This document shows positions 1,939 to 14,218 of a stretch of 64,000 nucleotides of DNA, piece by piece. Position 1 is the stretch's first letter. Each line of letters starts with the position of its first letter. Origin of the DNA: Halorhabdus salina (lineage in GTDB: Archaea > Halobacteriota > Halobacteria > Halobacteriales > Haloarculaceae). Under the pieces are notes generated by a model. That model searched no databases. It was not told the origin of the DNA and was given only the letters and a program-made list of their open reading frames with translations. Made by a program: the position numbers and the translations under genes. The stretch spans positions 124,001 through 188,000 of the forward strand of contig NZ_JACDNP010000003.1 in assembly GCF_013839425.1 (NCBI RefSeq), written 5' to 3'.

Positions 1939-2145
1939 ATGGTGCATCCCTCGCGAGCGGTCTCGGTTGCGTATCTCAGTGTTGGCTTCCACATGACGGC
2001 GTGGGGGATCGTCACTGTCGGCGAATCGACTCTCCGCGGCGGGATGGTCCTCGTCGGCGGAGTCGTCTTGCTTGTGAGCGGTCTCTACGGGCTGGTGAAC
2101 GACGAGTCCACTCCGATCGTCACCGAATACGGACTACACGCGTAG
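1939..2145 (+). CDS. Small two-helix membrane protein, hypothetical
   Basis: A 68-residue protein with two hydrophobic stretches (about residues 8-28 and 33-52), each rich in Gly and Val, and a short polar tail. Codon use has G/C at third positions like neighbouring genes, which supports a real gene. It starts 130 bases from the divergent MFS start. Small two-helix proteins of this type are common in haloarchaea and no function can be assigned. It could be mis-started, since an internal ATG lies at codon 19. Confidence 0.55.
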   Translation: MVHPSRAVSVAYLSVGFHMTAWGIVTVGESTLRGGMVLVGGVVLLVSGLYGLVNDESTPIVTEYGLHA

Positions 2146-2230
2146 GCACTACTGGCCGGCGTGGCGGTATTTGCTCTGGGTATCGTGCTGCAATTGCTCG
2201 TAGTCTGAACGGAAATGAATCGACGATGGA

Positions 2231-2674
2231 TCACGGCGTAGCCGCACCGACGTTTCCGTTCGATCCTGCAAAGGGGATGTCGATTTCGAGTTCGTCGTAG
2301 GCCAGTGTCGGCGTCTTCGCCTTTCCCGCTCCGCCGCTATCGATCTCGATAATGCCGATATCGTCGAGTTCAGACCGGTTTTGATGGCCCTGTTTGTCGT
2401 CCCGTTGCACCATCTCGGCGGTCGCCCGGATACTCTCGGGTCCGTGCTCGGTGATCGTCTCACGCAGTTTCAGGTTCCTTGGACTGCGTAGCCGGCTGGG
2501 TTCTGCGTAGGACCTGCTGTTCAGGATTGGTTGGCTGTTGTCAAGATTGACATCCTTCTCAGTATCTGCATCAGCCCGGTTGATCTCAACGTCGATGACC
2601 GCAGTCATCACGCCAAACAGGTCGGCCACGGTAGAAAATGGTGCCCTATTCGTTTCGACGGAGCCCTCACTCAC
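2231..2674 (-). CDS. HTH regulator of the HVO_A0114 type, N-terminal half aberrant
   Basis: The C-terminal 75 residues read like the winged-helix domain of haloarchaeal HVO_A0114-type DNA-binding proteins. A helix holds E-H-G-P-E-S-I-R-A-T-A, a recognition region follows, then an I-I-E-I strand and a Y-D-E-L-E-I-D-I-P-F ending. The first 65 residues do not look like the usual N-terminus of this family and are low in structure, so an internal rearrangement or decay is possible. ATG codons at 2674 and 2608 are both usable. It starts 8 bases beyond the stop of the modular lipoprotein gene on the same strand, so it may be co-transcribed with it. Confidence 0.5.
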   Translation of the reverse strand: MSEGSVETNRAPFSTVADLFGVMTAVIDVEINRADADTEKDVNLDNSQPILNSRSYAEPSRLRSPRNLKLRETITEHGPESIRATAEMVQRDDKQGHQNRSELDDIGIIEIDSGGAGKAKTPTLAYDELEIDIPFAGSNGNVGAATP

Positions 2675-2682
2675 GTCACTCG

Positions 2683-5145
2683 TTACTCTATGCCCTTCGA
2701 GAAATATGCGTTCCAGGACTCGTGTTCGACCGCGAGCCCCTCCGGCTCTCCGGACACCGACAGTGTGATCGAATCGCCCGCTTCGACCACGTCGTATTCC
2801 TCGGCCCAGACACTCGGATTGGTCTCAATCTGGCTACCATAGGTCGAGACAGCTACCTCCGCCGGATCGAGTTTCGCATCTGTCTCGGAGGTGAGCGTCA
2901 GCGACTCCTCTTCGGAGTCATATTCGACCGTGAACTCGAACGATGGGTGGACAGTCTCCGAGAAAATGTCGACCTCAGTCGATCCATTTTCCCAGACGAC
3001 TTCGACAGTCGATCCAGTATCGACATCCAGATCGATACTGTCTCCTTTGGTGATGGTATCCGAGAAGCCGTCGATTGACTCGCCATCTACCGTCACCCCG
3101 AACGCCTCAGCTGACCACTCGCCCTCACCCGCAAACCTCAGCGACGTCCCATCCATCTCGAACTCGACCATTTGACGCAGACTGATCCCGTCGATCCGTA
3201 CGGGTTCTTCGGGAACAGTCCATTCCACCCTGAGGAAGCTCATGCGATCGAACGCGATGTCGACGCTGTCGCCGTCCTCCAGCGTCTCGTACTCCTCGGT
3301 GAACTTCGTCTTTGAGTCCGACCCGTATGCCTCTATCTTGAACGCGTCCGGGTCTCCCTCATATCCTTGTTCGCTCCGGTAGACGAGCTCGAATCCGTCG
3401 GGAGCGTGGTTCAACTCGAAGGACACCGGCGGTGTAATATACGCGTTGAAGGCCGTTGCCGGACCGCCAGCTCCAGTCCACTCGACGACGACTTCATCGC
3501 CAACCTCGCCGTCGATCGGGAATTCGTCACCTGACTCGAGTGTGTCGTATTCGTCCTCCAACCCGTCCGAGAGTTCGGTGCCAGCGACGGTCACCCGGTA
3601 GTTCGCGGGATCGCGAGCTCTCCGGCCACCATACACGAGCGTTGGCTCTTCTTGTTGGTCCAGTGTGAAGTGTCCGGGTACCTGTGCACGGAAATGATAC
3701 ACCGAACTCGACAACGACTGCGTGGTGGTGCCACGCTCGACCGAATGCGTTGCCGAGAGCGATACACGGTCGTGGAGTGTGACACCGTCAATTTCGAACT
3801 TGTCGCCCGGAGAAAGCGTGTCATGATACGCCGCGAGGGATCCGGTGTCTGCCTCCTGTTCTCGATAGGTATACTCTTGAGTCGATGACGAACGGTGCTC
3901 GATCTCGATACGGTCAGTGGCTGTAATCGGTTTGGGACCGGTATACGTCAGCGTCAGCGTCCCTGACTCACGAGCGTAGTCCTCCTCGAACCTCACTCTG
4001 TCGGTGACCAGCTCCTGACTGACGACTGTTTGGTATTCGGGGTTCTCAGGGTCGGTCCACTCGAGGACGATCGACGAGAGGAGGTCAGCCTCGACAGTGA
4101 TGGCCTCTTTCGGGCCGAATTCCTCGCCGTTCCAGACGTCGGTTACTTCTTGGCCGTCGATATACAGCGCCAGCCCATCTGTCGAGACTGGCTCGTCCTG
4201 TGAGTGGAGGAGTTTGGCTGTTCCTGTTTCCGCATCATACTGAACCCGTAACCAGAGGTCAGGTGATCGTTCCCGGAGCTCACTCGATGGGGATGCTATT
4301 TCGATCGAACCGATGGCGACGCGACCGTCCTGTTTGACAGTTCCGACGCTGCCGTCACCTGATCCCGGGTCCTTGAGAAGCGTCTCGAAGTCGTCTGCGT
4401 CATATGCTGATTCGTCCGTGTACACCCCGACGATAGCGTATTGGACTGCTGTGGGATCGATCCGATCCACACCGAGAGCCACACTTTCGAGCACTTCTGT
4501 GTCGATGTCAGGGAGTCCTGAGACCGTACTCGGCGGGAAGGAGGGGAACACCTGTACGGTGGACGAGTCGGCTACCTGTGCCAGCGCCAGGCGTGTCTCC
4601 TCGGAGAACTCCAAGTCGTCATCGATTGCGTCTTTCGCCACTGAGACACCGTCAGTCCAGGCTCCGCCTTGTGAGGCCATGCCGAGAATGAAGAGCCCGT
4701 CGTCGCGATGGACCGCACTGTCCGGAATTTCTTCAGGAGCGTTCGGATCATTGGCGTCGAACGAGCCGACGAGTGTCATGATCCGGTTTCGGTCTTCACC
4801 ATAGATCGCGGTCGCGATTCGATCCACGGAGTCTTCATCGAGACCGAACTCGTCTGCGCGCTGGTTCCACATTGTCACGGAGGTACTCTCCTGTTCGGGC
4901 GACGGCGTGGCAATCGATATTCGCGAAGCCTGCGTGCTGTCCACGGATTCCGGAACAGGATCGAGAACCGCCTTGAGGGTGTCTGGGAGCGATGTATCAT
5001 CCGAGTCGGGCGTCGGCGTCGCCGTTTCGGAGGGGGACGATTCGGACGCAGTTGTCGGTTCGCCTGCGACGGCGCTACTGAGACAACTGGGTAGGGCGGC
5101 CATGGTGACACCGGCAAGAAGTTGCCGGCGGGTAGTGCGCACCAT
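2683..5145 (-). CDS. Secreted lipoprotein made of six pilin-tail-like modules
   Basis: An 820-residue exported protein. The N-terminus has a twin-arginine signal (R-R-Q-L-L plus a hydrophobic run) and an L-P-S-C lipobox-like site, then a Ser/Thr/Pro/Glu linker to about residue 60. A globular acidic domain fills residues 60-280. From there to the end I count six repeats of roughly 75-95 residues. Each has beta strands, a Tyr/Phe-rich start, a central G-D-S/E motif preceded by Glu/Asp-Tyr or Thr-Leu, and a V-x-V-E/V-W strand. The modules resemble the C-terminal beta domain of haloarchaeal type IV pilins. A TATA-like element at 5183-5192 places transcription start near 5161, which favours the ATG at 5145 over 5172. 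Function unknown; a surface role is inferred. Confidence 0.7.
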   Translation of the reverse strand: MVRTTRRQLLAGVTMAALPSCLSSAVAGEPTTASESSPSETATPTPDSDDTSLPDTLKAVLDPVPESVDSTQASRISIATPSPEQESTSVTMWNQRADEFGLDEDSVDRIATAIYGEDRNRIMTLVGSFDANDPNAPEEIPDSAVHRDDGLFILGMASQGGAWTDGVSVAKDAIDDDLEFSEETRLALAQVADSSTVQVFPSFPPSTVSGLPDIDTEVLESVALGVDRIDPTAVQYAIVGVYTDESAYDADDFETLLKDPGSGDGSVGTVKQDGRVAIGSIEIASPSSELRERSPDLWLRVQYDAETGTAKLLHSQDEPVSTDGLALYIDGQEVTDVWNGEEFGPKEAITVEADLLSSIVLEWTDPENPEYQTVVSQELVTDRVRFEEDYARESGTLTLTYTGPKPITATDRIEIEHRSSSTQEYTYREQEADTGSLAAYHDTLSPGDKFEIDGVTLHDRVSLSATHSVERGTTTQSLSSSVYHFRAQVPGHFTLDQQEEPTLVYGGRRARDPANYRVTVAGTELSDGLEDEYDTLESGDEFPIDGEVGDEVVVEWTGAGGPATAFNAYITPPVSFELNHAPDGFELVYRSEQGYEGDPDAFKIEAYGSDSKTKFTEEYETLEDGDSVDIAFDRMSFLRVEWTVPEEPVRIDGISLRQMVEFEMDGTSLRFAGEGEWSAEAFGVTVDGESIDGFSDTITKGDSIDLDVDTGSTVEVVWENGSTEVDIFSETVHPSFEFTVEYDSEEESLTLTSETDAKLDPAEVAVSTYGSQIETNPSVWAEEYDVVEAGDSITLSVSGEPEGLAVEHESWNAYFSKGIE

Positions 5146-5182
5146 GTTAGTGACGTTATGTCGTTCAGTCATTAAGATTTTC

Positions 5183-5192
5183 GAATATATTT
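5183..5192 (-). promoter_or_regulatory. TATA element of the modular lipoprotein gene
   Basis: On the minus strand the run AAATATATTC lies 38-47 bases upstream of the ATG at 5145. With the usual archaeal spacing of about 26 bases, transcription would start near 5161, giving a short leader of about 16 bases. This makes the further-upstream ATG at 5172 an unlikely start. Confidence 0.5.
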
Positions 5193-5240
5193 CATGTCGG
5201 GGTAACTGTTAGCAAAGCAATCTCGACAGGTATCACCAGG

Positions 5241-5352
5241 TCACCGCTCGGGTCGCGGCGCGGCCTCGTAGCGTCCGATCTCGTCGGTCTTCCCTACCTG
5301 ATCGTAGATCTCCCGCAACGTGTCTTCGGCCTGAAGCAGTTTGTGCTCCCGT
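5241..5352 (-). pseudogene. C-terminal fragment of an unidentified gene
   Basis: The minus strand reads in frame for about 36 codons to a TGA at 5241-5243. It gives an amphipathic Leu/Glu/Asp-rich tail (H-K-L-L-Q-A-E-D-T-L-R-E-I-Y) ending in A-A-P-R-P-E-R. The composition is that of a normal haloarchaeal coding end, but there is no start and no upstream body. It abuts the end of a transposase remnant at about 5353. I read it as the tail left behind when an insertion element landed in the gene. The parent gene was not recognised. Confidence 0.4.
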
Positions 5353-5490
5353 GAACTCTCCTATTCACTCGCCGCTGACGCGGCTCGTTCCTTGAGGGGA
5401 GGGCTTCCTGCTTCCACGACGCGCTATGCAAGAACGTAGTGGTTCTCGTCGGGAGCGCAGTCTCCACAGGCGTTGACGAGAGCTTCGATC
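5353..5490 (-). pseudogene. Remnant of an IS200/IS605-family TnpB gene (3' end)
   Basis: On the minus strand the frame ending at the TAG at 5361-5363 gives the C-terminal tail typical of haloarchaeal TnpB proteins. A V-N-A-C-G-D-C zinc-finger remnant is followed by R-V-V-E-A-G-S-P-P-L-K-E-R and A-S-A-A-S-E. A TAG interrupts the frame just before R-V-V-E, where a lysine codon is usual in relatives I remember, so one AAG to TAG change would explain it. After the stop comes GAGAGTTCAC, which resembles the right end of these elements. The rest of the gene is missing. The call rests on remembered family sequence. Confidence 0.65.
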
Positions 5491-5643
5491 TCGTTAACGC
5501 TACTCGGGCTTCGCCCTGCGTTGTCGTCCGAAAATCGGGGATTTTCGTGATTACGAGAGAGCTTCGCCCTCTCGAACGACTCCTTGAGGACTGGGGCTTA
5601 GCGCCTGCATTCAGGCAAAAGCCTCCCGGAGTGGCTGGACGAT
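5491..5643. repeat. Hairpin-rich intergenic segment downstream of truD
   Basis: No coding frame is convincing here. There are several short perfect hairpins: 5506-5516 (4-bp stem, loop TTC), 5529-5547 (7-bp stem, 5-base loop), 5554-5574 (6-bp stem) and 5603-5616 (5-bp stem, 4-base loop). The run ends exactly at the truD stop. The same style of segment occurs behind aspS and gatB. It may be transposon end structure, transcription-termination structure or a small repeat element. Confidence 0.5.
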
Positions 5644-6999
5644 CTACAGATCCGCCGGATCGGCCTTCGTGATCTCCCGGAGGACAACCGTCGCGTACGA
5701 GCCCTTCGGCAGCGCAAACGAGAGCGTCAGCGGATCGCGCTCGACGGACAGATCCGTCCGCAGGAGAATCGCCCGGCGTGTTCCTTCCGAACGAAACTCC
5801 CCGGGCAGATCGAAGTCCGCCGGCCCGATTCCCAACTCCTCGAAGACTGCGCGTTCGATCTCACCAGGTTCGCCCTCGGCAAGCTCACTTTCGGTCCCGA
5901 GCAGCGGCGCGGTCACGAACGCCCGCCCGCGCTCGCAGTGCCGACGAACCGTTCCGACGTTGTCTTCGGTGACGCGCTGGGTCCGACCGGTATCCGGCAG
6001 TTCCAGTCCGTCGGGGCCGTCGTTGTCGGCAAAACACACCGCGTCGCCGGGGACCGGTTCGTCGAAGGGGAGCCCGCGCTCGAGTCGGGCCGAGAGGATG
6101 CGGTTGAACGCGTACGATTGGGCGGCGTTGACGAACAACTGTTGGAGATTGGTCGGGACTGCCTCCAGGGCGTCCCGGAAGTCTTCTGGATTGCTGGCCC
6201 CGTTCTCGGCGAGGCGATGGCACATGGATCGCTCGTAGCCCAGGCGATTGGGCAGGCGATCGAGCGCACCCTGCCAGTCCCTGGTTTCCGCAACATACGC
6301 TCGCGCCTCGCGCGTGTCCTCGCGCTCACGGTCGTGTGGGTTGCCGACGTAGGCGAGGACGGCGTCCTTCCAGTCGCTCCGGGCGATCGCGAGTCCGACC
6401 TCGTGGGTGACCGGGCGCTCGCTGCCGAATCGCTGCTGGCCGAAAAAGTTGGGCACGCCGACGGTCGTCGCACTTCCCTCGTCGCGGTCACGGTCACTGC
6501 CGGCGAACGCGGCGAGTTCGTCGAGCACGGCATCGATGTTTTCGGGTCGATCGGGCTCGCTGATCTCGATCTCGAAGGCATTGCCCGCCAGATCGCCGAA
6601 GAGGATCGGCCGGCCACTTCGGCCGAGAACCTCGATTTCGACGTTCGAGAGGTCGATCGCATCGAGGTCGCCAGGGTCGATCTTCGTGACGGAGAACAAC
6701 TGGGTCGTCCGGGCGTGTTTGTCCTTCGTCCCAGCCCAGGAGACGCGCTCGCGGCTGATCCCCAGGGAATCCGAGAGCACGCTCGCGAAGTCGTTGGTGT
6801 CCCAGCCGGCGAGTGTCGCCCGGAAGACGACGTGTGGGTACGCGCCGGGCTCGGCGTCGATCGACTCGACGTCGAAGGCCTCGATCTCGCGGACGCCGAA
6901 GGCCGCAGGTTCCCGGCGGAGGTGCCCACCGACGCCGTCGCTATCGCTGACGTAGTAGTCCATCCCGACTGCGTCTTCGACTGGGTGTGCCTGGCGCAT
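5644..6999 (-). CDS. truD: tRNA pseudouridine(13) synthase TruD
   Basis: A 451-residue protein matching archaeal TruD, which isomerises U13 of tRNA (and U35 of some tRNAs in archaea/eukaryotes). The G-T-K-D-K-H-A motif is at residues 90-96, with catalytic Asp93. An N-F-F-G-Q-Q-R-F-G segment, typical of the family, lies before the TRUD insertion. The C-terminus ends in [14 protein letters not shown], also typical. The start M-R-Q-A-H-P agrees with haloarchaeal homologues I remember. It stands alone: insertion debris lies downstream and a psmB fragment upstream. Confidence 0.93.
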
Positions 7000-7063
7000 T
7001 AGCTACCCGAAGGGTAGGAATGAGTCGGTAAGAACGTGCTGAAACGGTGTGCTCAGCGTGTCT

Positions 7064-7165
7064 TTACAGCGCCTCAGCGAGGTCGTCGAACTCCTCGAAC
7101 TCGACACCCTCGTCGGTATCTCGCCGATCATGAGACCATTGCCCGAGCTGGCATCGTGCTCGCTT
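7064..7165 (-). pseudogene. Displaced copy of the psmB 3' end
   Basis: About 100 bases match the last 103 bases of the functional psmB gene (9574-9676), on the same strand and ending at an equivalent TAA (7064-7066). The first 53 positions have only two mismatches. Beyond that there is one missing base, which breaks the frame, and several substitutions; matching fades after about 7165. The peptide S-x-H/R-D-x-x-S-G-N-G-L-M/V-I is still readable. The copy lies 2510 bases downstream of the real gene, with two lipoprotein genes between. Confidence 0.8.
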
Positions 7166-7278
7166 AGGGCACTCTTTGAGCGAGTGAGACGAGTGGGAGT
7201 ATCTCGATCAGTGGTCACGAACAAGGTGAACGCTGTCGACTTCTCAAGAGAGGGGCTCTCGCGGTATCGTTCGGACGT

Positions 7279-8580
7279 CTACACACGGTCAAGTGTCTCG
7301 ACTGTCTGCCGAGAGACAGCGGGCGCTGCCCGTGCGATAGCAGTCGCGATACGGTAATCGGGGGCGTGAATCTCGAGATACGAAACGTCGATCGGTCCCT
7401 CATGTCGGGCGAGTCGCCGGTCAGTGGCGACAACTCGCCAGACAGCATTCTTGAGGGCCGTTCGCGTCAGTTCCGGTACTGAACTCTCCGCAAGTGCGGC
7501 CTCAATCGCATCGATGGCGGTCGACCGGAGCTTCCGGACCGCCTCGGCACTCTCCAGTCGGGGCGGCTTGCCGTCATCGATGCGCCCCTCTAAGCGGTCT
7601 AGTGCTTGGAACTCTGTGAGTCGTCTGTTCGCGTTGACCACGGCACTGGCTGGTCCGTTTGCGTCTCCGATTTGGGCGATCCCATCGTCGACATCCCCGC
7701 GAAGGTCGTCAATCGCCCGCTCAAGGATGCCCCACTCTTCGGCAGTCAGCCCCGGTGGCAATTCCGCTCTTCGCGACCGGACCGCTGTGAGTAGCGTTTC
7801 GGCCGCTTCAGTGAGTGCCTCCTCGAGAGTACCGGCGTCCGCGGGCAGGGACGCAGTGAACTGCTTGCTGAGGTGGCGTGCGTCAGCAAGATGTACCCGT
7901 GCTGATTCAGCTGTTTCACCCCACTCGGCAACGTGCAGGAGATCTTGTTTCTCTCCGGGGACCTGACTATCGATCACTTGCTCCAGCATGTCTTCGATGC
8001 GTTCGTGAACGAGGGCTGCTCGGACGGGATCGCTGCCGAGGTACTCGTATCCATCGCGAAGCGACCGCGCTTCCGAGACCACTTGCCTGTACTCTCGTTG
8101 GAAGGGTTCGGCGGTGAGATCTCGGTCGGCGACACCCCAGCCAGCAGCGGCGTACCGCGCCGCAACACGGGCCTGTTGAAGTGATGTGAGCGCTGCGAGT
8201 CCTGTTGGGGCGTTGCCTGCGTCGTCGAGGCCAGTAGCGGCATTGCTCGCAGCGTCAGAAAGGTGTTCGCGGAGATAGCCATTGGGAATATCGTCCGGCC
8301 CCAGTGGCCTGGGGAGTTGCCCAAGGAGCGTCCTTACCCTGGATCGGGCACCATTACGGTGGTCGGGAGCGATGTCGACGGGCACCGATTCGGACACAAC
8401 TGGTTTCGGATCCTCGTCGGGATCGGCTAGCAGATCATCGGCGTGTATTGTCTGTTGTCCTCCATCGCCTAGCCCCCCGAGGCGAGTACAGCCGGCAAAG
8501 AGGCTCGTTCCGACGACGGCCAGCAACCCACGGCGAGTTATTCGGCCCCACTCTGTCGTGGACGAACTATTTTCTCGCAT
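7279..8580 (-). CDS. Tat-exported lipoprotein, hypothetical
   Basis: A 433-residue protein. The N-terminus holds the twin-arginine motif R-I-T-R-R-G-L-L, a hydrophobic run and the lipobox F-A-G-C, so it should be lipid-anchored on the outer face of the membrane. The rest is mostly helical with many Ala/Glu/Arg residues (L-Q-Q-A-R-V-A-A-R-Y-A-A-A-G-W-G and similar) and no enzyme motif I recognise. The ATG at 8578-8580 overlaps the TGA (8580-8582) of the upstream gene in a TGATG arrangement, so translation is probably coupled. An in-frame GTG at 8583 is a less likely start. It lies inside the island bounded by psmB and its displaced 3' copy. Confidence 0.75.
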   Translation of the reverse strand: MRENSSSTTEWGRITRRGLLAVVGTSLFAGCTRLGGLGDGGQQTIHADDLLADPDEDPKPVVSESVPVDIAPDHRNGARSRVRTLLGQLPRPLGPDDIPNGYLREHLSDAASNAATGLDDAGNAPTGLAALTSLQQARVAARYAAAGWGVADRDLTAEPFQREYRQVVSEARSLRDGYEYLGSDPVRAALVHERIEDMLEQVIDSQVPGEKQDLLHVAEWGETAESARVHLADARHLSKQFTASLPADAGTLEEALTEAAETLLTAVRSRRAELPPGLTAEEWGILERAIDDLRGDVDDGIAQIGDANGPASAVVNANRRLTEFQALDRLEGRIDDGKPPRLESAEAVRKLRSTAIDAIEAALAESSVPELTRTALKNAVWRVVATDRRLARHEGPIDVSYLEIHAPDYRIATAIARAAPAVSRQTVETLDRV

Positions 8581-9286
8581 CACTGTCCATCCCCGGAGTG
8601 GGTTGGTGTCGTTTCTGTCCGGGTCTTCCGTTCGTTGGCGGACGTAGAATGAGCAGGGGCTTCCCCGTGGTGACGATCACAGACGCCGGTTTCGATCGAA
8701 CGTGAGTATTTGTGCACGTCGTCGGCGTCGATTGCATCGGGGATTCGAATGAGCCGCGCTTCGATGACCTGTTCGTCGACTTCACAGCGCGCTGTATATG
8801 GTCGGCTACGACGGCTGTAATCCGTCGATATGCTGGTTGCTGTCCAACCGACGAGACAAAGCGTGAGGCGGATACATTCCTCGACCGGTATCAGATCGAC
8901 GTAGACCGTCTCAGTTGCAAAGTCTGTCGCTGAGAAAACGATTCGACCTGTCCACTATCGACGCGATCACTAACGGTGACACGGTCAGCGCGGGCCGAAT
9001 CGTCGACGATGAAATCCCGCCAGTTGTCAGGGTCGATTGCTGTCGGACGGCCGTCGGATTCGCCGTCTGACCCGTCGAGCCAAATCGGCGGGCGATCGGT
9101 ATCAACACGGAGTAAGAGCGACTCCGGGACCGTTACCGTTTGGGGCGTCGGGCTGCTGTCGTCATGGTCGGGGAATGGCATCTCCGTCGATTCAGCGGAA
9201 TCATCATCCATTCCGGCACATCCAGCAAGTGCAGCAGTAACTCCTACGGCACCGTGAAGGAAGGTCCGACGTGTCAGAGGAACCAT
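8580..9286 (-). pseudogene. Tat lipoprotein gene with a single-base frameshift
   Basis: The frame from the ATG at 9286 encodes a Tat lipoprotein start (L-T-R-R-T-F-L, then L-A-G-C) and about 115 residues. It then meets the A4 run at 8935-8938 (T4 on the coding strand), after which the original frame soon stops at 8891. In the shifted frame coding continues without a stop for about 118 codons to the TGA at 8580-8582, with haloarchaeal codon use (T-V-Y-V-D-L-I-P-V, then E-V-D-E-Q-V-I-E-A-R-L-I-R-I-P). Adding one T to the run joins the halves into 235 residues. The TGATG overlap with the next gene sits at the end of the shifted frame, so that frame was used. Recent decay, a variable tract or a sequencing error are all possible. 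Confidence 0.75.
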
Positions 9287-9381
9287 TATTCTGTGATGTG
9301 TCGGACGGACTGAGTGAAAAGAGTACTCATCTGTCACACTTACCGCGGTCACTCCGCAGGGCATCGGCTACTTAGCTGAAT

Positions 9382-9441
9382 CGAGGCGCTAAGTCCCTCC
9401 CTCTGTGAGCGCATCAGCGCGAGCAGGGTGGGTAGTTCACA
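9382..9441 (+). pseudogene. Possible second IS200/IS605 TnpB end remnant
   Basis: The plus strand aligns by eye with the TnpB tail at 5353-5420: a GAAGC/GAGGC start, an AAGTCCCTCC block, GCATCAGCG, then a GGGTAGTTCAC ending equivalent to GAGAGTTCAC. The frame is partly kept (E-A-L-S-P-S-L-C-E-R) but no transposase body remains. It lies in the gap between the frameshifted lipoprotein gene and psmB, within the island bounded by the two psmB 3' ends. Confidence 0.45.
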
Positions 9442-9478
9442 TCGACTGGATCCGCATTTTCACATCCTCGTCTGGGCG

Positions 9479-9499
9479 GTGAGAACTTCCGTTCTCACC
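9479..9499. terminator. Perfect hairpin downstream of psmB
   Basis: Nine-base arms GGTGAGAAC and GTTCTCACC are separated by three bases. The hairpin lies 75 bases past the psmB stop. There is no strong T-run beside it, so it may be a transcript 3'-end structure or an end hairpin of the nearby IS200/IS605 remnant. Confidence 0.4.
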
Positions 9500-9573
9500 A
9501 GTCTCGGGAAACTGTCTGCAAAATACGTCTGGAGATGACGACAGTCCCGTCTGAGGGAACGTGATTCGGAGAG

Positions 9574-10278
9574 TTACAGCGCCTCAGCGAGGTCGTCGAA
9601 CTCCTCGATCTCGACGCCCTCGTCGGTGATCTCGGCGATCACGAGCCCGTTGCCAGAGCCGGTGTCACGTTCGCTTGCGGCCTGGACGGCCCGCGTCGCG
9701 AGTTCCCGTGCCTCCTCGGTCGAAAGCTCGGGATTGTATTCGCCTTCGAGGGTCCCGTAGGCAAGTTGCATCCCGCTGCCGGTGACAGCGTAGTCGTCCT
9801 CCATGACGCCGCCGGCCGGATCGATCGTGTAGACGTGGCTCCCCTCCTCGTCGACCCCGCCCAGGATCGGGTGGATCGCGAAGAAGGGGCCGCCACGGGC
9901 GAAGTTGCCCGCAAGCGTCGCCAGGGCGTTGATGCTCATCGGTTCGTCACGGCGCGTCTCGTAGAGACTGGCCTCCGAGCGTAGCGTGCGGATGAACGAC
10001 TGGGCACCACCGACCGAACCGACCAGCGTCATGGCCGCAGTCGGGTGGATCTGATCGACCTTGACGACGTTCTTGTTCGAGACGAACCGGCCACCCAGGC
10101 TGGCTCGCCGATCGGTTGCGATGACGACTCCCTCCTCGGTCGCGAGGCCGACCGTCGTCGTGCCGGTCTTCGTCACGTTTTCCTTGTCACCGTTCTCGGT
10201 CGCGATCGAGCCGAGTTCCGGGCTGTACGGGTCGATCGCGTCGTCGCCAGTCGGGTCGAGATTCATATCGGGATTCAT
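9574..10278 (-). CDS. psmB: Proteasome beta subunit
   Basis: A 234-residue catalytic subunit of the archaeal 20S proteasome. A 39-residue propeptide ends at K-T-G, and the N-terminal nucleophile after self-processing should be Thr40 (T-T-T-V-G-L). The lysine of the catalytic site is in the D-R-R-A-S-L-G segment plus the V-V-K strand, and the S-G-S/S-G-N-G motifs of the fold are present. The start overlaps the stop of psmA by four bases (ATGA), so the two are translated together. A second, decayed copy of the 3' end lies at 7064-7165, which suggests the present 3' end arrived with an insertion or allele exchange. Confidence 0.96.
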   Translation of the reverse strand: MNPDMNLDPTGDDAIDPYSPELGSIATENGDKENVTKTGTTTVGLATEEGVVIATDRRASLGGRFVSNKNVVKVDQIHPTAAMTLVGSVGGAQSFIRTLRSEASLYETRRDEPMSINALATLAGNFARGGPFFAIHPILGGVDEEGSHVYTIDPAGGVMEDDYAVTGSGMQLAYGTLEGEYNPELSTEEARELATRAVQAASERDTGSGNGLVIAEITDEGVEIEEFDDLAEAL

Positions 10279-11012
10279 TCGTCATCACCGCCTAGGAGGT
10301 CGCGTTCGTCGAGATGCTCTTCGATTACGTCCTGGCCGACCGTGAGGACGCCGTCCTCGTCGACCGTCTGGAGGTCGACGCCGTCCGGGTCGAGTCCGTC
10401 GTCATCTGGTTCGGCCAGCCCTTCGAGCGCGAGGCCGACGCCCTGCTCGAGGGTCAGACCCTCCTCGTAGTTGTCTTCGAAGTACTCCTGGATGTCCTCA
10501 CGGCCGCCGCCGACCGCCAGGGCCGACCACTCGTATGGGGTCCCGGAGGGATCGGTCTCGAACAGGCGTGGCTCACCGTTCTCCATCCCACCGACGATCA
10601 GTGACACACCGAACGGTCGCGCGCCACCAGTTTGGGTGTAATCCTGGATCGTATCCGTGATGGCCTTCGTCAGCGGTTCGACGCCCATCGGCTCGTCGTA
10701 CCGGAGCCGGTTGACCTGTGCACGCCGACGGGCGAAGTCGATAAGTTTGCGTGCGTCGGCCACGTGACCGGCCGAGGCAATGGCGATGTGGTCGTCGATC
10801 TTGTGCGTCTTTTCGATGCTATCGCGCTCGATCAGGTCCGATCGAGCCTGGCGGTCGGCCGCGAGGACGACGCCGTCTTCGGTCCGGACGCCGACGCTCG
10901 CGCTGCCGCGTTTGACGGCCTCGCGTGCGTACTCTACCTGGTAGAGCCGGCCGTCCGGCGAGAAAATCGTTATCCCGCGATCGTAGGCCTGTTGTTGCTG
11001 GTTTCCTTGCAT
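10275..11012 (-). CDS. psmA: Proteasome alpha subunit
   Basis: A 245-residue subunit of the outer, gate-forming proteasome rings. The N-terminus Q-A-Y-D-R-G-I-T-I-F-S-P-D-G-R-L-Y-Q-V-E-Y-A is the alpha-subunit signature that forms the gate and contacts AAA ATPases such as PAN. The acidic C-terminal tail (residues 195-245) is typical of haloarchaeal versions. The ATG at 11012 is chosen because M-Q-G-N-Q-Q-Q-Q-A-Y-D matches the family start. A GTG at 11027 is possible and would be leaderless relative to the TATA-like run near 11047-11056. It overlaps psmB by four bases. Confidence 0.95.
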   Translation of the reverse strand: MQGNQQQQAYDRGITIFSPDGRLYQVEYAREAVKRGSASVGVRTEDGVVLAADRQARSDLIERDSIEKTHKIDDHIAIASAGHVADARKLIDFARRRAQVNRLRYDEPMGVEPLTKAITDTIQDYTQTGGARPFGVSLIVGGMENGEPRLFETDPSGTPYEWSALAVGGGREDIQEYFEDNYEEGLTLEQGVGLALEGLAEPDDDGLDPDGVDLQTVDEDGVLTVGQDVIEEHLDERDLLGGDDE

Positions 11013-11087
11013 AGGTCGAGTGTTCACTCCGAGTTAGGGCACGCGATACATAAAGGCTTCAGTAAGAGGTAAATAGGAGGATTGAAA

Positions 11088-11128
11088 GCGGTCGAGTTGT
11101 CGCCGGTCGATATGTCGAACTGTCGCCA
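11088..11128. repeat. Short tandem duplication downstream of pth2
   Basis: An 18-base unit, GTCGAGTTGTCGCCGGTC, is followed after five bases by a 15/18 match, GTCGAACTGTCGCCAGTC. It sits just beyond the pth2 stop and near the psmA promoter. No function is evident. Confidence 0.4.
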
Positions 11129-11129
11129 G

Positions 11130-11468
11130 TCAGTACAACGAGAGGTCGCCGGTGACGCGATCGACAATATCTTCGCGTGCGGGACCCACGGCCAGCGCGG
11201 AGACGGTCCCTGGTTCGAGTTCGGTGTGGCCGGCGTCCCTGACAATCGCGTGAGCGATCCCCTCGCATTCGGCGACATCTGCGAGTTCGAACAGCTGTGA
11301 CTCGCCGTCGGCCTGGAGGACGATCTTCTTCTGGCCCTCGCCTTTCCACTCGCTTTTCGTCCGGCGGTCGGCATCCTCGTACGCCATCAGCGAGGCATGG
11401 GCGACTTGGGCGGCGAGCTTTCCCTCGCCCATGTTCAGGTCAGCGCGGGCGACAATCGCCTGTTTCAT
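11130..11468 (-). CDS. pth2: Peptidyl-tRNA hydrolase, archaeal type
   Basis: A 112-residue Pth2 protein, which recycles peptidyl-tRNA by cleaving the ester bond. The conserved N-terminus [20 protein letters not shown] is present, followed by A-H-A-S and the K-K-I-V-L strand. Near the end are [11 protein letters not shown] and A-V-G-P-A, the family core. The length is normal. It precedes psmA on the same strand, about 115 bases away, separated by its own promoter region. Confidence 0.95.
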
Positions 11469-11533
11469 ATCGACGCTTCGACGCCTGCCCCTAAATCGAC
11501 ATCGTTATTTGGTGATTGTAAGCAATCACTGTC

Positions 11534-12127
11534 ATGTCCCCGCGTACACCGCTCCTCGATCCAGCTGCGTACTTTAGCCGTCGCGACCGGCCGTCACTCC
11601 GTTCGGCAGCCGGTATCGTGACGGTCAGTGCTGTCCTCTCGATCGCGCTTGTCTGGTGGTTCGTCGATCGCGTTATCAGCCGGATCGACGTCGCTGGCGC
11701 CGTGCGCCAGGAAGCCATGTCCGAACTGGGTGGCCAGTTCCTGCTGACGTTTCTCGGCGTGTATTTCGGCTGGCTGTTGCTCGCTGTCGTGATTCACTTT
11801 TTCATGTGGTTTGCCGGCGCAGATCGTTGGTTCGGAGCCACGCTAGCGGTCGTCGGCGAAGCAATGCTGGTCTCCGTTGCGCTGTTGCCACTGTCAGCAA
11901 TTGGGTTTTACGTGGTGCTTGGGCAGGTCCCGGCCGAACCTGACGCTGCGATCGACTTCGTCGAGCAGTTCAATAGGGGGTCGACCGGCCTCCTGGTTGT
12001 CGAATTCCTCAGAGTACTCTGGGAAGCGGCCGTCCAAGCCATCGGGCTCGCTATCGTCCACGATATTTCGCTGTCGAAAACGGCGATCGTGACGTTCGGG
12101 ATCGGGTTCCTCCTCTTCCTCGTGTAG
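11534..12127 (+). CDS. Yip1-type membrane protein
   Basis: A 197-residue protein with about five hydrophobic segments (starting near residues 27, 70, 105, 145 and 178). The segment after the short amphipathic N-terminus (L-L-D-P-A-A-Y-F-S-R-R-D) fits haloarchaeal proteins annotated as Yip1-domain. It should sit in the cytoplasmic membrane; the role in archaea is unknown. It is divergent from pth2 and just upstream of dcd. Confidence 0.7.
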   Translation: MSPRTPLLDPAAYFSRRDRPSLRSAAGIVTVSAVLSIALVWWFVDRVISRIDVAGAVRQEAMSELGGQFLLTFLGVYFGWLLLAVVIHFFMWFAGADRWFGATLAVVGEAMLVSVALLPLSAIGFYVVLGQVPAEPDAAIDFVEQFNRGSTGLLVVEFLRVLWEAAVQAIGLAIVHDISLSKTAIVTFGIGFLLFLV

Positions 12128-12193
12128 GCCCGGTATCCGGCTTGCGAGTCGCTGATCGGGAACCTTTAGACCGACCGGGTCCGGAATACCGAT

Positions 12194-14218
12194 ATGATCC
12201 TCTCCGATCGGGACATCCTGGCGCGTCTGGAGGCGGGCGACCTCCGTATCGAGCCACTGGACGATCTTGATTTACAGGTCCAGCCCGCGAGCGTTGATCT
12301 TCGGCTGGGTCGTGAGTTCCTGGAGTTCCAGCACGCAAACATTCCGTGTATCCATCCCAACAGCGAGCAGGAGGTTGACGAGTACGTCGAAGAGACCGTC
12401 GTCGAGGAGGGTGGCGAGTTTATTCTCCATCCCGGCGATTTCGTTCTCGGGACAACCAAGGAACGCGTCGCGATCCCCGACGACTTGATCGCTCACGTCG
12501 AGGGCCGCTCCTCGCTGGGTCGTCTCGCGGTCGTGGTCCACGCTTCGTTACCGTACGACGAGGAAGTGTTCCTCTGGACGCCCGAGGACGGGTTCGGGTT
12601 TTACGAAATCGGGGAAATCGTCGAAAACGAACGACCCGCGCGTGCGGTAGCGTTCGACCCAACGTCTTTGGGAGTGAGTACACATCGCGTTACGGATTAC
12701 ATCACGAATCCGACCAAGCGGATCTATCGCGTGACGCTCGATTCGGGGCGGCAAGTGCTCGTGACGAAAGATCATAATCTGTTCACCCTCGACGAGCATG
12801 GCGGCGTGGCACGTATCCCGAGCGACGAGGCCGAGGGGGCGGCCGTCATGGTACCTAGCTATCTCCCCAGCTCTCCGAGTGAGCGGCGATCTGTTGACGT
12901 CCTTGATCACGTCGAACCGACCGAGACGACGATCTACGCCAGTGATGGTGTCGGTCATGTCGATACGTCCGCCGTCCCAGGCGGTTCGAGGCGACACTAC
13001 GAAGCGAACGATAGCGCCCCCATGGACGCGATCCCCCGGCTTGCAATGCCTGAGGAAGTCGAAGTCGCGTTCCGACAGAGCACGACGCGACTTCCCCGTT
13101 CGATTCCGCTCACGAGAGAGTTCGGATGGGTCCTCGGATTCTATATCGCCGAAGGATCCGGCCGGAGAAAGCAGATACAGGTAGCCAACACGCAGCGCGA
13201 GTATCTGGACCGCTTCGCGTCGTACTTCGAAGCCTACGACACGAGCATGTCTTGGGACGAGCGAGAACGAATAACAAAACTCACGATCTGTTCCGCACTC
13301 TGGTCGAAGATCGTACGAAGTCTCGCCGGGTCTGGAAGTGAGAAAGAAATTCCGTCCGAGGCGTTCGATTGGCCACGCCCCGTACTCGAGGGGCTCCTTG
13401 AGGGGCTCCTCGACGGAGACGGATGCCGGCGGGACGAGCGCGATACGTTTTACACGGCCAATCAGTCGCTCGCGAACCAAGTGATGTACCTCGCCACGCG
13501 ACTCGGAAACCTCGGGTCCATGTACAGTCGCGAACGCGAACAACATATCCCGATGAGTGATGTCGATTGGGAAGGGGAGATGTGGGCCGTCGACGTGAGC
13601 GGCGAGCGTCACAAGCGGGGCCAGTATATTCCAGTCCCGAACGAACTCCTGAGAGAGCTCCGCGAAGAAGCTGATATGCGAATGATCGACGCCGCAGAGG
13701 CTATGGGGTACGCTTCGAAATCGAGCGTTTCCAACGTCGAAAACAGGGAGTACGACACCGTGAAACGTGATACACTTCGCCGATTTCGGGACACGTACGC
13801 CGACGCCGGTGCCGACACCGGACGCCTCGATCAGATCCTCGACGGCGGCGTACGCTTCGAGAAAGTCGTTTCCATCGAGGAGACAGACCGCGTCGAACCC
13901 ACGTATGATCTCGAGGTTCAGCCGAACGGCCGTACTATCGAGAATTTCCTCGGGGGTCGCGGCGGTGTGTTTCTCTCGAACACAGCGGGACTGTGTGATC
14001 CCGGCTACGAGGGCCAGATCACCCTCGAACTGTCGAATCTCGGGACGGCACCCGTCGCGCTCAATCCGGGGATGCGCATCTCGCAACTGACCTTTACCGA
14101 ACTGTCCAGCCCGGCGGATCGCCCCTACGGCGAGGAGCGCGGCTCGAAATATCAGGGCCAGGAAGGGCCACAGGCCTCGCGGATACAGGGCGATAGGGAA
14201 TTCGGTGGTGACCAATGA
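12194..14218 (+). CDS. dcd: dCTP deaminase precursor interrupted by an intein
   Basis: A 674-residue precursor. Residues 1-117 and 597-674 join to a 195-residue protein, the normal length of archaeal dCTP deaminase, which makes dUTP from dCTP for thymidylate synthesis. The N-part ends in [14 protein letters not shown] and the C-part starts [11 protein letters not shown], which are contiguous in intein-free homologues. The insertion is therefore in the most conserved active-site stretch and the enzyme needs splicing. The stop overlaps the next gene's ATG by four bases. Confidence 0.93.
12545..13981 (+). mobile_element. Dcd intein with LAGLIDADG endonuclease and HTH insert
   Basis: Encodes residues 118-596 of the precursor (479 residues). 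It begins with Ser (S-L-P-Y-D-E-E-V-F), the splicing block A position usually held by Cys, and ends V-F-L-S-N before Thr+1. The penultimate residue is Ser instead of the usual His. Block B is visible as T-K-D-H-N-L-F. LAGLIDADG motifs are at about 310-323 ([11 protein letters not shown]) and 398-411 ([10 protein letters not shown]), both with the acidic residue, so the homing endonuclease may be active. Residues 480-535 look like an XRE-type HTH (I-D-A-A-E-A-M-G-Y, then S-S-V-S-N-V-E-N). Splicing is inferred from the intact exteins. Confidence 0.9.

Follow-up and report, generated by a model that had tools for sequence, protein, structure and literature searches.

A lipoprotein gene pair inserted behind the proteasome gene psmB of Halorhabdus salina, between two copies of the psmB 3' end

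The window analysed here, a stretch of 64,000 nucleotides, comprises positions 124001-188000 of a 340-kb contig of the haloarchaeon Halorhabdus salina, whose genome amounts to 2.86 Mb. The closest named relative in public contigs is Halorhabdus amylolytica (psmB 87%), which is G001 in a comparison set of six other genomes of the genus (G001-G006). The minus strand carries pth2, psmA, psmB, an island, truD, a gene of an 829-aa lipoprotein (p829) and an MFS gene (mfs), in this order, with dcd lying upstream of the pth2 end on the opposite strand. The features on which the analysis is based are as follows.

5644-6999, minus strand: truD, the next native gene (PF01142, E 3.5e-144; synteny)
7064-7165, minus strand: left repeat copy, a decayed psmB 3' end, out of frame and with one base lost (86%, E 8.6e-28)
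7166-9573, no strand: the island, absent at the same place in G002-G006 (synteny)
7279-8583, minus strand: lip1, an intact gene of a putative Tat-type lipoprotein of 434 aa (59 of 146 family genomes have homologues; dN/dS about 0.28 against G001)
8580-9286, minus strand: lip2, a putative Tat-type lipoprotein gene with one frameshift near 8936 (homologues are 253-aa proteins; tblastn)
9287-9335, minus strand: conserved leader of the lip operon (33-38 nt 84-88% identical in G001 and G002)
9376-9453, plus strand: IS-end-like remnant, similar to a short intergenic sequence (13-mer core at 9385-9397; pattern count and alignment)
9481-9502, no strand: hairpin GGTGAGAAC-TTCC-GTTCTCACC (DNA fold, z -2.0)
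9574-9675, minus strand: right repeat copy, the last 102 bases of psmB (repeat search)
9574-10278, minus strand: psmB, proteasome beta subunit, intact (Pfam PF00227, E 5e-47; 95% amino-acid identity to the psmB of G003)

Some features of the surroundings may be added. The 829-aa lipoprotein gene beside truD (2683-5172, minus strand) is also of the Tat type, has a low GC3 (0.67), is present at the same place in G003 with 68% identity and gave no match in a Pfam search. The dcd gene (dCTP deaminase; 12194-14218, plus strand) is split by an intein with LAGLIDADG and helix-turn-helix stretches (Pfam), apparently missing from the dcd of G001, G002 and G003 and apparently common to archaeon SHR40 (L005). 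An Rfam scan of window positions 2000-12000 returned nothing at E up to 1.

The island is bordered by two copies of the psmB 3' end, which in the whole-genome search are 86% identical over about 103 aligned positions (E = 8.6e-28), and 96% identical over the 54 bases that end with the stop codon. The copy on the truD side has lost one base (ATCACC to ATACC) and retains no open frame, exactly as the sequence-only reading had described this 102-base decayed end. On one side the repeat stops exactly past the stop codon, on the other it fades about 102-110 bases upstream. Elsewhere in the genome a similar sequence occurs only in the paralogue psmB2 (contig 5), to which the last part of the left copy is much less similar (31/54) than to psmB (52/54). 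The two copies differ at 14 positions and the site lies 131 kb inside the 340-kb contig, so an assembly duplication is not the source of the two psmB ends. Inverted repeats were not found at the island borders. The left copy adjoins the truD leader, which is where the displaced tail of the original psmB, as it had been proposed to be, should lie.

The comparison of gene order in relatives, which had been named in advance as a check, was carried out and revealed an empty site in five of the six other Halorhabdus genomes (G002-G006), where psmA, psmB and truD follow one another with a psmB-truD gap of about 95-120 bp, without an island and with only one psmB end. The whole flanking order mfs-p829-truD-psmB-psmA-pth2-dcd is also that of G003, the nearest relative. 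The island is thus an insertion that occurred in the lineage of the host genome, in agreement with the original proposal. In G001 the same gap is occupied by a different, 7.5-kb insert with genes of an APC (amino-acid) transporter and of the UspA type, at which no second psmB end was found; the psmB-truD gap therefore takes up insertions by more than one route. This insert occupies positions 5933-13434 of locus L111 (G001:C1:372000-387000) and some of its reading frames look broken. At another locus of G003 (L119, G003:C1:757000-772000; positions 5548-7478) a TnpA-TnpB element of the IS200/IS605 type stands against a truncated psmB2 3' end, and the 5' part of psmB2 was not found there.

The island contains two genes, both on the psmB strand, whose overlap TGATG joins the lip2 stop to the lip1 start, and the coupling of the two lipoprotein genes had been correctly recognised. 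In tblastn searches with three lip2 homologues, lip2 was matched in two frames, with 55-65% identity on each side of a switch at a T run near 8936; because of this frameshift the list of open reading frames gives lip2 only a 157-aa frame, of which about 131 aa follow its own start. Mutation and sequencing error are both possible sources of the frameshift, and lip2 may no longer be functional in this strain. The dN/dS of lip1 is 0.22 between G001 and G002, and lip1 is a gene evolving under constraint. Profile searches with lip1 in Pfam, NCBIfam, PDB and PADLOC returned no match, and the lip2-lip1 pair is without a family name in any of these collections. Both genes encode a putative twin-arginine signal followed by a candidate lipobox cysteine, plain in the sequence (TRRGLLAVVGTSLFAGC, TRRTFLHGAVGVTAALAGC); the RR and the C are invariant among eight lip1 homologues, and TAT models run on the lip2 homologues scored just below the cut-off. 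A single-sequence fold prediction for lip1 is mostly helical with a pLDDT of 43, too poor for a fold search. Most likely Tat exports both proteins, which would then be anchored on the outer face of the cell membrane and work as a pair.

The pair is widespread but not tied to any one place. In the 59 family genomes with lip1 homologues the neighbourhoods are unrelated and often belong to megaplasmids; G003 and G005 have no lip1 homologue. In G001, G002 and G114 the operon sits at differing chromosomal places, and it also occurs on large plasmids of Haloarcula, Halomicrobium and Halolamina: behind hut genes on the Halolamina plasmid, near a PTS operon on pHH400 and between protein kinases on pHmuk01. 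The same two overlapping genes in the same order are HAH_RS18190 and HAH_RS18195 of Haloarcula hispanica pHH400; closer copies of the pair have a lip1 of 49-67% identity. In the lip1 tree the window copy stands on a long branch, grouped with G114, G001 and G002. The GC3 of lip1 is 0.61, in comparison to 0.77-0.83 for psmB, psmA, truD and mfs. In comparison with G001, lip1 and truD have similar synonymous distances (0.72 and 0.58); the dating of lip1 therefore neither proves nor excludes horizontal transfer, and the operon could have come by transfer from a plasmid or by relocation inside the genome. A search for gene-end repeats flanking the operon at 21 other loci gave short chance-level matches only. 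Since the other copies examined stand in other contexts without such repeats, the operon does not itself bring a repeat of the psmB type; a further peculiarity of the present copy is its frameshifted lip2.

The leader of lip2 (about 35-45 bases) is conserved with G001 and G002 in spite of the other location of the operon in these genomes, and it is therefore part of the mobile unit. Between this leader and psmB lie 240 bases with the hairpin and the short IS-end-like remnant. The hairpin reported in the sequence-only reading is real, although it is only modestly better than shuffled sequences (z = -2.0); no T run follows it and no terminator-like site was found. The 13-mer of the remnant, GGCGCTAAGTCCC, occurs twice in the genome, the other copy lying at 5593-5605 in the opposite direction. 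Elsewhere in the genus this 13-mer (GGCGCTAAGYCCC) belongs to short intergenic IS-end-like sequences, one of them near a broken TnpB. The earlier designation of this part as an IS200/IS605-like end thus holds as far as the resemblance to IS-end-like sequences of relatives is concerned, but what is present is a short remnant at most. A structured IS-end-like sequence is also found at window positions 5540-5605 (minus strand), just past the truD 3' end, and all but one of the six comparison genomes have similar ones.

The differences between the two psmB ends are distributed unevenly. All 14 fall within aligned positions 1-68, followed by 35 positions at which the copies agree throughout (scanned-break permutation test, p = 0.006). 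The last part of the left copy has changes private to the psmB of the host genome (GCT, GAG); the first part is about 25% diverged and is without such private changes, matching its own psmB at 37/48 positions and other Halorhabdus psmB ends at up to 40/48 (H. amylolytica, 40/48). This mosaic structure suggests either recombination inside the psmB end, through att-like or homologous integration, or later gene conversion. It would be the expected trace of a crossover within the psmB end if the incoming DNA bore an older psmB end, and later conversion of an older duplication would be expected to have the same appearance.

On balance it is probable that the lip operon with its leader was inserted between psmB and truD by recombination at the psmB 3' end. 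The incoming DNA was probably a circle or an integrative element which carried psmB-end sequence. After a crossover inside the psmB end, the 3' end of psmB itself would have been complete, and a second psmB end would have come to lie across the insert, beside truD, and would now be decaying there as non-coding DNA; the recombinase would have acted in trans or since been lost. The outcome looks like that of elements integrating at gene 3' ends (attL/attR) or of single-crossover integration of a plasmid. No integrase was found in or beside the island, and tBLASTn of the integrases of the host genome against the window gave no match, nor did its integrase ORFs (some of them partial) have a tBLASTn match beside psmB in relatives. 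On plasmids, phages and viral contigs only a whole psmB gene and weak chance matches to the psmB end were seen. As neither an integrase, nor inverted ends, nor a plasmid or virus carrying psmB was found, the mechanism is one that we infer. Two psmB ends close together were seen in none of the other family genomes listed, and thus nothing points to an element that targets psmB repeatedly; at 45 named haloarchaeal loci, the search for second psmB ends near psmB gave nothing beyond the weak background similarity that GC-rich coding DNA typically shows. The length of the repeat also counts against recombination at the psmB end, as 102 bp is longer than most archaeal att sites. The stronger claim that the psmB 3' end is a true att site of a small haloarchaeal element without a recombinase, the lip pair being moved by a recombinase in trans, is quite unlikely.

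A less likely alternative is that a break at the psmB end was mended with captured foreign DNA as filler, about 100 bp being copied on both sides, so that the target was duplicated with no recombinase involved. Such repair would suit the missing recombinase gene and border inverted repeats as well as an event unique among the family genomes listed, and the unrelated G001 insert in the same gap, which has no psmB end, indicates that inserts arrive there by other routes too. Decay after repair should however be uniform, whereas the differences are uneven, and a repeat ending exactly at the stop codon would need chance or selection. It is unlikely, in turn, that an old insertion of any kind was followed by conversion from psmB which renewed the final 35-54 bases of the left copy. 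Such a history would explain the mosaic, with its diverged first part and near-identical last part, without requiring an element-borne psmB end, but so short a tract stopping exactly at the repeat border would be a special case; from one genome such conversion is not separable from a crossover at insertion. Recombination at insertion is preferred to break repair with filler, and the latter to an old insertion with conversion, and we infer that the repeat arose at the insertion itself, by recombination and not by break repair.

It is very improbable that the IS200/IS605-like remnant moved the operon as cargo of a single-stranded transposon. The rare IS-end-like motif, present at 9385 and in reverse orientation at 5593, speaks for such a mover; nevertheless the window has no TnpB match, the motif lies off the island border with its partner beyond truD, and the psmB-end repeat disfavours it. 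Insertion of IS200/IS605 elements makes no target duplication. The remnant, too short and too far from the island borders, is therefore not what moved the operon, and the island is rejected as an IS200/IS605 element. That a tandem duplication of psmB and a later deletion acted on a site already holding the operon is scarcely credible: a second full psmB paralogue does exist on contig 5, but the left copy is far nearer to psmB than to this paralogue and the relatives lack the operon at this place.

Archaeal elements that have integrated into the 3'-distal part of a protein-coding gene and are flanked by direct repeats are on record: 14 of 68 thaumarchaeal elements are of this sort, and NitEve-E2 of Nitrososphaera evergladensis is an example of an element at the 3' end of a protein-coding gene. 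In one archaeal case of 3'-end integration the stop codon was rebuilt, crenarchaeal att sites measure 29-69 bp, and the elongation factor 2 gene can have a casposon in its 3' end (PMC6563490). The island resembles elements such as NitEve-E2 in lying behind a gene that retains or regains its 3' end, in its border direct repeats and in its empty site, and differs from them in its size of only 2.4 kb, in having no integrase or mobile-element gene and in a much longer, mosaic repeat. The psmB gene is absent from the target genes given in PMC6563490. With casposons the island has in common direct repeats and the 3' end of an essential gene as target; it is unlike them in having no Cas1-like casposase, family-B polymerase or terminal inverted repeats and in a repeat that far exceeds a casposon target duplication, and a casposon was rejected as there are no such genes in the 2.4 kb and no border inverted repeats. 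As regards an att element, direct repeats of the psmB end at both borders and an empty site in G002-G006 were found; a site-specific recombinase of its own, in an island consisting of lip2 and lip1 only, was not, nor was reuse of the site or a free form. Because it encodes no recombinase, the island is not an integrative element in its own right, but it looks like the product of the documented 3'-end integration.

The case is clear but, as genome evolution goes, ordinary: a mobile pair of genes has landed where an essential gene ends. The mosaic scar is modestly interesting. A widespread haloarchaeal lipoprotein pair without a name is found on plasmids and chromosomes in ever-changing places, and the empty site together with the scar shows how an essential proteasome gene can receive accessory genes immediately after its end and stay unbroken. 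If it were true that psmB is a repeated integration site, it would be a new target gene on the short archaeal list.
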